Origin: Parasporobacterium sp.
Lineage (GTDB): Bacteria; Bacillota; Clostridia; Lachnospirales; Lachnospiraceae
Length of the DNA: 64,000 nt
NCBI GenBank assembly: GCA_017510065.1
Contig: JAFWOB010000100.1
Span: forward strand, 25,183 to 89,182
Direction of reading: 5' to 3'
Position 1 is the first letter of the stretch, and each line of letters begins with the position of its first letter. Below the pieces are notes generated by a model that searched no databases, was not told the DNA's origin, and saw nothing but the letters and a program-made list of their open reading frames with translations. Below, piece after piece: positions 13,740 to 19,037 of this stretch. The translations under genes were made by a program, and so were the position numbers.

Positions 13740-13754
13740 TTCCAACCTTTTATC

Positions 13755-13848
13755 AGACTTCCTACGCCGGCATTATCCGGATCAGGTTCAGGGTTTCATG
13801 GCTCTGGCCATGATCTCAGCCGACAGATCGTCAGCACCCCTGCCTCAC
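13755..13848 (-). promoter_or_regulatory. TPP riboswitch (THI element)
   Basis: On the minus strand the conserved aptamer elements appear in order: GGGGTGC, CTGAGATC, a variable hairpin (ATGGCCAGAGCCAT), ACCCTGAACCTGATC, GGATAATGCC and GCGTAGGAAG. These are the thi-box hallmarks. Binding of thiamin pyrophosphate is expected to switch off the downstream transport operon. Confidence 0.97.
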
Positions 13849-13867
13849 ATTATTAAGTTCAGGATTT

Positions 13868-16450: not shown

Positions 16451-17383
16451 CTACTCCGTAAACAAGGCGGTGGAATAATACCGATCGCCGCTGTCCGGCA
16501 GCAAAGCTACGATGACTTTTCCTTTGTTTTCCGGCCTCTTCGCCAGTTCGATAGCGCCGTACAGAGCTGCTCCTGAGGAAATGCCGACCGAAATGCCTTC
16601 CTTCTTTGCCAGAAGTTTGGCTGCCGCAAATGCTTCCTCGTTGGGGGCCTTGATGATCTCATCATAGATTCCGGTGTTCAGTACTTCCGGAACAAAGCCG
16701 GCACCGATTCCCTGGATCTTATGAGAACCTGCTCTTCCTTCAGAAAGTACCGGGGAATCCTTGGGCTCCAGCGCCACGACCTTGACGGAAGGATTCTGCT
16801 CCTTCAGATATTCTCCGGTTCCGGTTACGGTGCCGCCGGTTCCGACGCCGGCAATAAAGATATCCACTTTTCCGTCTGTATCGTTCCAGATCTCCGGTCC
16901 GGTTGTGGCTTTATGGATCGCCGGATTCGCCGGGTTGACGAACTGGCCGGGGATAAAGCTGCCCGGGATCTGTTCCGCAAGCTCCTGCGCTTTCGCGATC
17001 GCGCCTTTCATGCCTTTCGCACCTTCCGTCAACACCAGCTCTGCTCCATAGGCTTTCAGGATGTTTCTTCTCTCCACGCTCATGGTCTCCGGCATTGTCA
17101 GGATGATCCGGTATCCCTTTGCAGCTGCGATCGCCGCCAGGCCGATCCCGGTATTGCCGCTTGTTGGTTCGATGATGACGGAACCTTCCTTCAGAAGTCC
17201 TTTTGCTTCCGCATCTTCGATCATAGCTTTCGCAATACGGTCTTTGACACTTCCTGCGGGATTAAAATATTCCAGCTTCACCAGGATGGTTGCCTCCAGT
17301 CCCAGTTCCTTTTCCAGATTCACTACCTCTACCAACGGAGTATTGCCGATCAGTCCCAGTGTTCCTTTGTAAATGTTTGCCAT
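16451..17383 (-). CDS. cysK: Cysteine synthase A
   Basis: PLP-dependent O-acetylserine sulfhydrylase making cysteine from O-acetylserine and sulfide, in the cytoplasm. 310 residues. [19 protein letters not shown] carries the PLP lysine, [12 protein letters not shown] the substrate-binding loop, [15 protein letters not shown] the phosphate-binding glycines, and GIGAGFVPE and GISSGAA complete the fold. AAGGGA before ATG 17383 sets the start. It lies 27 bp after metY on the same strand, so both genes share the metY promoter and attenuator. It ends facing repeat array B. Confidence 0.96.
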
Positions 17384-17410: not shown

Positions 17411-18697
17411 TTACTGTTTGCTTGCTGCAAAGCCTTTCTCCAGATCCGCGATGATGTCGTCAATATGCTCAGTCCCGATGGAAAGACGGATCGTATTCGG
17501 CTTGATCCCCTGATCCAGGAGTTCTTCCTCTGTAAGCTGTGAATGAGTGGTGGAGGCCGGGTGGATCACAAGACTCTTCACATCGGCCACATTGGCCAGC
17601 AGGGAGAAGATCTGCAGATGATCGATAAACTTCCAGGCTTCTTCCTGCCCTCCCTTGATCTCAAAGGTAAAGATCGATGCGCCTCCGTTCGGGAAATACC
17701 GCTCATACACCGCGTGGTCCGGATGATCCGGGAGTGATGGGTGGTTGATATGTTCGACCTGCGGATGATCTTTCAGATAATCGATCACTTTCTTCGTGTT
17801 TTCCGCGTGCCGCTCCAGCCGAAGCGAAAGGGTCTCCACTCCCTGCAGAAGAAGGAATGCGTTGAAGGGGGAGATACACGCTCCGGTATCCCTGAGCAGG
17901 ATGGCGCGGATGTATGTCACAAAGGCTGCCGGCCCTACGGCATCATAGAAGGAGACTCCGTGATAGCTCGGATTCGGTGCCGCAATGTTGGGATATTTCC
18001 CGCTTGCTTTCCAGTCAAACTTACCGGATTCGACGATGATGCCGCCCAGGGTGGTGCCGTGCCCGCCGATGAATTTGGTGGCAGAATGTACCACAATGTC
18101 CGCACCGTGTTCGATCGGCCGGATCAGATACGGGGTTCCGAAGGTATTGTCGATCACCAGGGGGAGGCCGTACCGATGGGCTATCTCCGCGATAGCGTCA
18201 ATATCCGGAATATCACTGTTGGGATTGCCCAGGGTTTCCAGATAGATCGCTCTGGTATTGTCCCGGATCGCATCTTCCACTTCCTGCAGATTATGGGCGT
18301 CTACAAATGTTGTTTCGATCCCGTATTGGGGGAGGGTATGGGACAGCAGATTGAAGCTGCCGCCGTAGATCGTCTTCTGTGCCACGATATGCCCGCCGTT
18401 TACCGCCAATGCCTCAATCGTGTAGGTGATCGCTGCAGCGCCGGATGCCAGCGCCAGGGCGGCACTGCCGCCTTCCAGGGCAGCCAGTCTCTTCTCCAGC
18501 ACATCCTGGGTGGAATTGGTCAACCGGCCGTAAATGTTGCCGGCGTCTGCCAGACCGAATCTGTCCGCGGCATGCTGGCTGTTGTGAAACACATAAGATG
18601 TGGTCTGGTAAATGGGGACTGCCCGAGCGTCCGTCGCCGGATCGGCAGATTCCTGTCCTACGTGCAGCTGCAGGGTCTCAAATTTGTATTCGCTCAT
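17411..18697 (-). CDS. metY: O-acetylhomoserine sulfhydrylase / aminocarboxypropyltransferase
   Basis: Cys/Met-metabolism PLP enzyme that adds sulfide or methanethiol to O-acetylhomoserine. From ATG 18697 it has 428 residues, typical of MetY. AVPIYQTTSYVF and NIYGRLTNST are N-terminal signatures, ETLGNPNSDIPDI and VIDNTFGTPYL flank the cofactor site, and HSATKFIGGHGTTLGG contains the PLP lysine. AAAGGAG precedes ATG 18697; an upstream extension of the frame reaches toward the attenuator and is not used. First gene of the metY-cysK operon, under a long leader with its own small ORF. Confidence 0.93.
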   Translation of the reverse strand: MSEYKFETLQLHVGQESADPATDARAVPIYQTTSYVFHNSQHAADRFGLADAGNIYGRLTNSTQDVLEKRLAALEGGSAALALASGAAAITYTIEALAVNGGHIVAQKTIYGGSFNLLSHTLPQYGIETTFVDAHNLQEVEDAIRDNTRAIYLETLGNPNSDIPDIDAIAEIAHRYGLPLVIDNTFGTPYLIRPIEHGADIVVHSATKFIGGHGTTLGGIIVESGKFDWKASGKYPNIAAPNPSYHGVSFYDAVGPAAFVTYIRAILLRDTGACISPFNAFLLLQGVETLSLRLERHAENTKKVIDYLKDHPQVEHINHPSLPDHPDHAVYERYFPNGGASIFTFEIKGGQEEAWKFIDHLQIFSLLANVADVKSLVIHPASTTHSQLTEEELLDQGIKPNTIRLSIGTEHIDDIIADLEKGFAASKQ

Positions 18698-18770: not shown

Positions 18771-18808
18771 AAAAAGCCCGGAAACTTTATTTCTGAAAGC
18801 TCCCGGGC
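18771..18808 (-). terminator. metY attenuator terminator
   Basis: GC-rich stem (18801-18808 with 18776-18782, extended by CTTT/AAAG) followed by five Ts on the minus strand, ending 74 bp before metY. Its 5' arm (TGCCCGGGAG on the minus strand) is exactly complementary to minus-strand CTCCCGGGCA at 18904-18895 in the leader ORF, giving an alternative antiterminator. Confidence 0.85.
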
Positions 18809-18840
18809 AAGTTGCAGGAATCATGATGATGGCACATTCG

Positions 18841-18960
18841 TTATACACAAAGGAGGCGCAGAGTTGGAAGGCCGAACGCCTCAGCCACAGGAAATGCCCG
18901 GGAGATAGGCATTCGACAACACATGCAGGTTTTAGATTTGTAAGTCAACTCGTGGAACAT
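18841..18960 (-). CDS. Cysteine-rich leader peptide of metY-cysK
   Basis: A 39-codon ORF starting at ATG 18960 with AAAGGAG eight bases upstream and ending at TAA 18841. It begins MFHELTYKSK, then TCMCCRM (residues 11-17, three Cys and two Met codons), and ends LRLLCV. AATGCC/GGCATT pairing just after the Cys cluster can protect the antiterminator strand. A ribosome stalled at codons 12-15 would break that hairpin and free CTCCCGGGCA to block the terminator. The ribosome site (18961-18975) can also pair with 18849-18863 at the ORF's end (14 of 15). This arrangement fits a cysteine-starvation sensor; the mechanism is inferred. Confidence 0.8.
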   Translation of the reverse strand: MFHELTYKSKTCMCCRMPISRAFPVAEAFGLPTLRLLCV

Positions 18961-18989
18961 CTCTGCGTCTCCTTTCTGTAAATGTTGTG

Positions 18990-19021
18990 CCTACTATATA
19001 ACTATTCACCTACTATGTCAA
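18990..19021 (-). promoter_or_regulatory. metY promoter with CCTACTAT direct repeats
   Basis: TTGACA (19016-19021), 17 bp, TATAGT (18993-18998) on the minus strand. On the + strand CCTACTAT occurs at 18990 and 19009, and CCTACTAT...ATAGG forms an inverted repeat over the -35 box. It could be an Rrf2/CymR-type operator, but I cannot confirm the regulator. Confidence 0.8.
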
Positions 19022-19037
19022 TAGGTGTTTTCATTTT

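Follow-up and report, generated by a model that had tools for sequence, protein, structure and literature searches.

On the minus strand of the window (the whole 64,000-nucleotide stretch of DNA that we analyzed), a leader of 226 nt precedes two adjacent genes, metY and cysK, which the initial annotation had named as the regulated genes and which curated NCBIfam models identify with scores above their cut-offs (Table 1). The genes are 27 nt apart, and no terminator-like site was found in this gap when we looked for one. As described in the initial annotation, the leader contains a short open reading frame (ORF) with a strong Shine-Dalgarno (SD) sequence (AGGAGACG) and a run of Cys codons; these are codons 12, 14 and 15, with Met as codon 13, and a further Cys stands at codon 38. 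Among the 416 ATG-initiated ORFs of 20–60 codons within the window, it is the only one that encodes CxCC. The two pairings claimed for this RNA were also confirmed: the putative antiterminator strand CTCCCGGGCA is complementary at 10 of 10 positions to TGCCCGGGAG, which overlaps the 5′ arm of the terminator, and the SD region can pair with the end of the ORF at 14 of 15 positions. The leader has a fold z-score of −6.4, with none of 200 shuffles equally good. A perfect inverted repeat of at least 10 nt with arms at least 30 nt apart appeared in 6 of 500 dinucleotide shuffles, so the repeat alone is only moderately unlikely. Elsewhere in the window, Rfam places an ordinary TPP riboswitch (69 bits, 13742-13851, minus strand) upstream of ORFs that by eye resemble an ABC permease and a binding protein.

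Table 1. Features of the metY-cysK leader and the genes downstream, in window coordinates
Feature	Position	Strand	Support
Operator-like motif CCTATTGACATAGTAGG, overlapping the -35 box	19009..19025	-	
Promoter: -35 box TTGACA and -10 box TATAGT, 17-nt spacer	19021-19016 and 18998-18993	-	Promoter scan
Leader SD region AGGAGACGCAGAG, 5′ arm of helix P1	18961..18973	-	P1 co-evolution, 123 listed leaders
Leader ORF, 39 codons plus TAA, peptide MFHELTYKSKTCMCCRMPISRAFPVAEAFGLPTLRLLCV	18841..18960	-	Homologous leaders in relatives
Candidate sensor codons TGC ATG TGT TGT (Cys-Met-Cys-Cys, codons 12-15)	18916..18927	-	
5′ arm of predicted protector helix P2, CGAATGCCT	18907..18915	-	Pair probability 0.996, window leader
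Antiterminator 5′ strand CTCCCGGGCA, on Ile-Ser-Arg-Ala codons	18895..18904	-	Covariation
3′ arm of P2, AGGCGTTCG	18873..18881	-	
Anti-SD, 3′ arm of P1, CTCTGCGCCTCCT	18851..18863	-	Fold and co-evolution
Shared arm TGCCCGGGAG, which either meets the antiterminator strand or pairs as part of the terminator 5′ arm	18800..18809	-	Covariation
Intrinsic terminator, 13-bp stem (18808-18776) plus U run, −19.5 kcal/mol	18771..18808	-	
metY (O-acetylhomoserine sulfhydrylase family), regulated gene	17411..18697	-	NCBIfam TIGR01326, 627 bits, cut-off 495
cysK (cysteine synthase A), second gene	16451..17383	-	NCBIfam TIGR01139, 453 bits, cut-off 351

Searching with the leader peptide, we found a second, diverged leader in the source genome (52% identity over 29 residues), located on contig C154 before the substrate-binding gene of an amino-acid ABC transporter, together with leader copies in relatives; neither peptide of the source genome has a match in Pfam or NCBIfam. 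A profile built from four peptides matched 34 of 397 genomes in the source family at an E-value no higher than 0.01, and a 27-peptide profile matched 13 of 391 genomes at the class level and 4 of 398 at the phylum level. These counts are slightly overstated, because non-leader matches occur among the E-value matches. Upon inspection of 30 profile-matched loci, the leader core was present in 28 and absent in L043 and L044; the early loci L003 (E 1.1e-4), L006, L015 and L016 look unrelated by eye, and the class-level match in genome G182 (L059), judged by eye not to be a leader, lacks the remaining parts of one. Two of the phylum-level genomes lie outside the class and carry full leaders before metY. 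A DNA pattern consisting of two Cys codons, CGAATG and CTCCCGGGCA, applied to one genome per species, yielded at least 119 stretches. From 166 fuzzy core matches we kept at least 152 distinct leaders (33 in profile-found and 119 in pattern-found loci), which we refer to as the listed type I leaders. The 14 matches removed, with five or more substitutions, were opposite-strand or spurious, and L061 and L083, with five substitutions each, were retained because their context and compensating changes fitted. The shared arm was not recognized in L035, L037 and L041 of the 33 profile-found leaders, nor in L112, L130 and L146. A set of 123 leaders omits 29 of the 152, either because the shared arm was absent or distant, because no SD could be called, or because of an unusual start, contig ends or Ns; a redundancy filter applied to 136 listed leaders returned all 136.

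The listed records are mostly rumen and gut metagenome-assembled genomes labeled Lachnospiraceae, Ruminococcaceae, Saccharofermentans, Clostridiales or Clostridia, and the leaders form a widespread family that seems to be undescribed in Clostridia. One leader, L126, is from Clostridium porci, a cultured commensal. Leaders L114 and L149 lie on contigs labeled Eggerthellaceae and Succinivibrio, possibly by transfer or binning error. In L081 (6801-6955, minus strand, counted on the reverse complement), tandem leader cores 127 nt apart precede a MetY-like gene, the first peptide containing Ns.

The leader searches ignored the downstream gene, and a first gene could be called for 144 of the 152 listed leaders (the other eight had none callable). 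To class these genes, we compared them by BLAST with representatives of the set, and NCBIfam models supplied the names of ten representatives. MetY accounted for 80, MetQ/NLPA for 23, family-3 substrate-binding proteins for 19 and amino-acid permeases for 8; the others were cystathionine gamma-lyase/synthase-like (4), MetY-like (3), iron alcohol dehydrogenase (2) and unclassified (2), with a 3-sulfopropanediol dehydratase-like fragment, an ABC ATPase and a LysR protein found once each. Sulfur families (MetY, MetY-like, MetQ, lyase/synthase and dehydratase) thus make up 111 of the 144 listed first genes. Parts of cystine-like importers, comprising the binding proteins and permeases, make up 27, their specificity being putative: for the family-3 binding proteins a cystine model is among the best matches, well under its cut-off. 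In L032, the gene behind the leader is a fragment of a glycyl radical enzyme; its best model, (2S)-3-sulfopropanediol dehydratase, scores under the cut-off, and at this locus the use of sulfonates may be linked to the supply of cysteine.

For the codons themselves, we used a Cys-blind pattern consisting only of the SD, antiterminator and shared arm. In the 397 genomes it found 13 leaders in 12 genomes, all 13 with one to four Cys codons among the last few codons before CGAATG (or CTGATG), and the reversed control found no sites in the same genomes. The spacing from Cys codons to antiterminator was constant in 12 of these 13, L193 having 21 extra nt. The Cys run varies in make-up (C, CC, CCC, CCCC, CMCC, CWCC and CCMCMC) and the synonymous TGC is used for 31 of 330 Cys codons in the listed leaders, as expected of a codon run. 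Its position is kept as well, the first core codon being codon 13-15 in 112 of the 138 listed leaders with a called SD. Immediately before the Cys pair, Met occupies the codon in 98 of the 152 listed leaders, whereas 32 have Cys there and 9 have Trp; one codon further upstream, Met is found in 66 of 152. Outside the core, Met makes up 9.7% of residues, start codons included. The codon immediately before the pair differs with the target. It is Met in 22 of 23 MetQ leaders, Cys in 12 and Met in 3 of 19 family-3 binding-protein leaders, and Met in 51 and Cys in 14 of 80 MetY leaders; Fisher tests against the MetY leaders gave 0.003 for MetQ and 0.0002 for the binding proteins, and among hand-sorted Lachnospiraceae leaders Cys stood there in 0 of 4 MetQ versus 8 of 11 binding-protein cases (p 0.026), an association that is suggestive only, because the statistics ignore kinship. 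Since Met is enriched beside Cys and the codons differ with the target, both sulfur amino acids may be read.

A Cys codon also occurs among the last three codons of 77 of 150 listed peptides, often as Arg-Cys-stop. In 59 of 65 cases the P1 arm would lie under a ribosome stalled at the C-terminal Cys, a count that has no control and concerns an arm near the ORF end anyway. As an explanation for this Cys, pairing between the 5′ UTR and CGATGTT at the ORF end was rejected, a leader's own sequence being no better than swapped ones (p 0.2); pairing between the 5′ UTR and the Met-Cys codons was rejected likewise (p 0.96).

Pairing of the antiterminator with the shared arm was evaluated in the 30 profile-found leaders with a recognized arm, since the DNA pattern fixes one strand in the others. 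In these, 292 of 300 positions pair, and the mean of 9.73 pairs per leader compares with 9.23 for swapped partners, a value as high being reached in none of 10,000 permutations (kinship ignored). Both sides have changed at antiterminator positions 1, 6, 7, 8 and 10, as in CTCCCAGGCA/TGCCTGGGAG, CTCTCAGACA/TGTCTGGGAG and GGGTG/CGCCC; pairing is poor in L005 (6/10) and L061 (7/10), and one further leader has 9/10. For 136 listed leaders, RNAalifold recovered the antiterminator/shared-arm helix as the consensus; the covariation term was close to zero, because the search that found the majority of them had fixed one strand. An extension of the antiterminator by ATGGC/GCCAT is weak (p 0.021), both parts occurring in 67 of 123 listed leaders. 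Pairing of CGAATG with the CATTCG that lies upstream of the metY start in the window recurred in 3 of 133 listed leaders against 1.0 expected, and we took it as chance.

Helix P1 has co-evolved as well: across the 123 listed leaders, the SD region pairs with its own ORF end at −13.97 kcal/mol versus −11.70 kcal/mol with the ends of other leaders (p 1.3e-10), and its own end is the better partner in 76%. P1 is predicted to be present before the shared arm emerges with a mean of 0.55, versus 0.33 when that region is shuffled. For P2 the mean in the listed leaders is 0.37 versus 0.15 for shuffled sequences, and co-evolution of its arms was looked for in the 123 listed leaders and not found. The initial annotation had assigned the protector role to a local hairpin of AATGCC (18913-18908) and GGCATT (18898-18893). 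Both elements exist; the hairpin itself was rejected, with a predicted probability of 0.004 versus 0.996 for CGAATGCCT/AGGCGTTCG in the window leader and a mean of 0.00 in the 123 listed leaders.

Folding of the window leader up to the end of the shared arm gave P1 and P2 with an antiterminator probability of about 0 in the absence of a ribosome, and an antiterminator probability of 0.99 with a ribosome on Cys 15. At equilibrium, the full-length RNA favors the terminator in both states, even when stalled (0.90 versus 0.001 for the antiterminator), and in this model the antiterminator would therefore have to form first; timing matters. In 84 of the 123 listed leaders, by comparison, the antiterminator is favored even without a ribosome, and for transcripts that end with the shared arm the family mean rises from 0.88 without a ribosome to 0.98 when one is stalled. 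P2 is therefore not a general protector, and the off state probably needs P1, forming first, together with a translating or terminating ribosome positioned between the two strands.

Overall, we interpret the leader as a ribosome-mediated transcription attenuator before metY-cysK that responds to a shortage of Cys-tRNA, a reading to which we assign a probability of about 0.78. RNA polymerase would transcribe the leader while a ribosome translates the ORF. When charged tRNA-Cys is scarce, the ribosome would halt within the Cys run (codons 12, 14 and 15). If its A site held codon 14 or 15, and if its leading edge is placed 12 nt beyond the first A-site base, that edge would lie about 2-5 nt before CTCCCGGGCA, so that P2 could not form and the antiterminator strand would be free. 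This strand would then pair with the newly made TGCCCGGGAG, no terminator would form, and metY-cysK would be transcribed. With plentiful cysteine, the ribosome would reach the stop codon, which in the listed leaders stands a median of 30 nt upstream of the shared arm, and the terminator would form; if no ribosome is loaded, P1 would trap the antiterminator strand and the terminator would likewise form. We infer translation, the stall, the Cys-tRNA signal and the direction of regulation from this arrangement. The support comes from the sequences: the ORF, the conservation of its codons, the mutually exclusive and covarying antiterminator and terminator, the co-evolution of P1 and the sulfur targets. 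The folding of the window leader up to the shared arm and the second leader copy in the source genome also speak for it. Counting against it are the advantage of the full-length terminator at equilibrium, the antiterminator favored without a ribosome in most of the 123 listed leaders, the preponderance of Met over Cys just before the Cys pair, the type II leaders described below, and the small share of inspected metY genes (5 of 30) that have this leader. As in trp-type attenuators, a short ORF that has an SD and repeated codons for an amino acid which the targets synthesize or import is combined with a conserved antiterminator and an intrinsic terminator that exclude each other. The initial annotation had proposed this same attenuator and had named a lack of peptide conservation in related leaders as one outcome that would refute it; we found the peptide conserved. 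Its interpretation is supported, because the core, the Cys codons, the covariation, the spacing between Cys codons and antiterminator and the sulfur context hold across the family.

Among 51 metY matches in 60 genomes of the source family, we inspected 30 and found a type I leader at 5, a peptide of another type at 3, a distinct leader at L223 and one that we did not class; the remaining 20 upstream regions had no recognized leader. A profile of the second peptide type (type II) matched in 17 of 299 genomes. Type II leaders lie at L236-L251, L253 and L254, of which L236, L238 and L237 coincide with the sites in L215, L218 and L221, respectively. The type II peptide, FExLxRxN[FY]RxGRM, lies mostly upstream of metY and nearly always keeps CGA ATG. 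In L241, L244, L247 and L250 the stop codon follows GRM immediately, without a Cys run, so the Cys codons are not the sole conserved feature; elsewhere a tail follows that mostly contains Cys. Usually no terminator is visible by eye, and the type II peptide may be one that arrests the ribosome. Two loci, L240 and L253, are hybrids that combine a type II peptide with an antiterminator and terminator of type I style. The unrelated-looking leader at L223, also upstream of metY, reads MMMCCMDGMMCM; by eye, it is followed by a different terminator of its own and offers a candidate antiterminator. Within MFTQNKTSKNNMMMCCMDGMMCM..., ten Met/Cys codons fall in a cluster of twelve, and the candidate antiterminator is CAAGTGCTTC/GAGGCACTT.

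Type II leaders bear on an alternative that we consider unlikely for the metY-cysK leader, namely nascent-peptide arrest, in which (C)(C/G)RM in the exit tunnel would stop the ribosome, perhaps with a sulfur metabolite, in place of Cys-tRNA shortage. It would account for the Arg-Met encoded by CGA ATG after the Cys run, with Arg present in 149 of the listed leaders and Met in all 152, two residues that the search profile and pattern favor, and for conservation of LxRxN[FY]RxGRM in type II despite synonymous codon differences, with four of these peptides stopping right after. In type I, however, the peptide sequence ahead of the Cys run differs between leaders, as does the count of Cys, CGAATG also contributes to P2 in the window leader, and by geometry a ribosome halted two codons further on would mask roughly the first 4 nt of the antiterminator. 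The strong nucleotide conservation of CGAATG and CTCCCGGGCA and the stable fold would also suit a ligand-binding riboswitch or protein-bound RNA in which the ORF is incidental. We regard this as the least probable explanation: the leaders preserve their SD, their reading frame and the distance from start to Cys codons, the best-conserved nucleotides of the listed leaders fall in the promoter, the SD and start codon, the Cys/CGAATG codons and the antiterminator and terminator, and the window leader has no match in Rfam 15 at the gathering score, with two weak microRNA matches below it.

With up to four mismatches, the operator-like motif CCTATTGACATAGTAGG at the -35 box occurs in 103 of 123 listed leaders and in 0 of 123 shuffled regions, and exact copies stand at both leaders of the source genome. 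A copy with two mismatches precedes a glutamate-cysteine ligase-like gene and one with three precedes a cysteine desulfurase gene (L184 and L190, on contigs C71 and C154); for the desulfurase the best model, NifS, is just under its cut-off and an IscS subfamily model is over its own. Another two-mismatch copy, L185, has no cysteine-type neighbor gene. Inexact-motif searching of the source genome gave 9 matches versus 21 for the reversed control; as the motif is no commoner than the control beyond the exact copies, the extra sites rest on position and gene context, and together with the cysteine genes they make up a candidate cysteine regulon that does not exceed the control count. In clostridia, cysteine repression by CymR is described, with CymR and IscR sites alike (PMC3828012), and the source genome has one gene for an Rrf2 protein, which the IscR and CymR models match below their cut-offs. 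These observations raise the very improbable alternative that a CymR/IscR-type Rrf2 repressor at the -35 motif exerts all control, the terminator merely lowering expression. It leaves the covarying antiterminator and the Cys codons at fixed spacing unexplained, 20 of the 123 listed leaders have no motif, and the excess of control matches counts against it as well.

A broader proposal is that the leaders are a joint gauge of Met-tRNA and Cys-tRNA, Met-rich before methionine-type and Cys-rich before cystine-type importers, and that they share a common origin with type II, whose nascent peptide may be the sensor. We hold this combination to be possible but somewhat doubtful. If the attenuator reading is true, a widespread codon-reading switch for cysteine would mean that these gut and rumen bacteria have solved the problem differently. 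With at least 152 leaders, the family gives direct, testable predictions on cysteine and methionine sensing and spans a natural gradation from leaders with Cys codons to leaders with a conserved peptide, and a leader could by itself mark sulfur genes and importers.

Attenuators of the trp and his type combine a codon-run sensor with a mutually exclusive antiterminator and terminator. The clostridial leader shares both elements and differs in its Cys/Met codons and in having its own SD pair with the ORF end, in a helix that crosses the antiterminator helix. Leaders of his genes occur in bacilli (PMC2965389). The initial annotation had regarded a cysteine/methionine version in Clostridia as undescribed, and this part of the claim held: in the literature that we searched, with little subscription and preprint coverage, no clostridial cysteine leader turned up before metY or before genes for sulfur transporters. 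For Rhodobacterales, however, an attenuator that senses cysteine and uses an intrinsic terminator was already predicted. According to that report (PMC8632094), the uORFC-8-2 motif, a cysS leader, has a tandem pair of Cys codons, as a rule at positions 14 and 15, and a U run that fits an intrinsic terminator, and ribosome-mediated attenuation through a shortage of charged tRNA-Cys was proposed. As described there, it resembles the clostridial leader in its Cys-codon uORF, terminator and proposed attenuation, and differs in phylum, in its target cysS and in having its Cys codons inside the first stem; none of the 142 classified among the 144 listed first genes in our set is of the cysS class.

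Cys-codon leader ORFs before cysteine genes are likewise known from Actinobacteria. Mycobacterial polycysteine leader ORFs (Canestrari 2020) are leaderless and cysteine-responsive according to the title of that paper, and cited for translation attenuation (PMC13236596); among actinobacterial cys/cbs leaders with Cys-codon ORFs, those of Mycobacterium place their Cys runs close to the stop codon and lack a conserved terminator hairpin (PMC1262725). On these accounts, the mycobacterial leaders are unlike the clostridial one in being leaderless, in using translation attenuation, in the position of their Cys runs by the stop and in having no conserved terminator hairpin. For clostridia, the sulfur controls described in two reports are T-boxes, S-boxes and (predicted) CymR (PMC2940859, PMC3828012). 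The SAM riboswitch model (RF00162) had no match in the source genome at an E-value of 0.001 or better, and the T-box covariance model (RF00230) had none at the window leader; two T-boxes found in the source genome precede genes best matched by models of a 2-isopropylmalate synthase (under its cut-off) and a TrpB-like enzyme. The cysteine-specific T-box of clostridia causes premature termination at cysteine genes according to Cys-tRNA charging (PMC2940859). The T-box reads the tRNA by RNA alone, whereas the clostridial leader carries an ORF; early termination governed by Cys-tRNA charging would be common to both.
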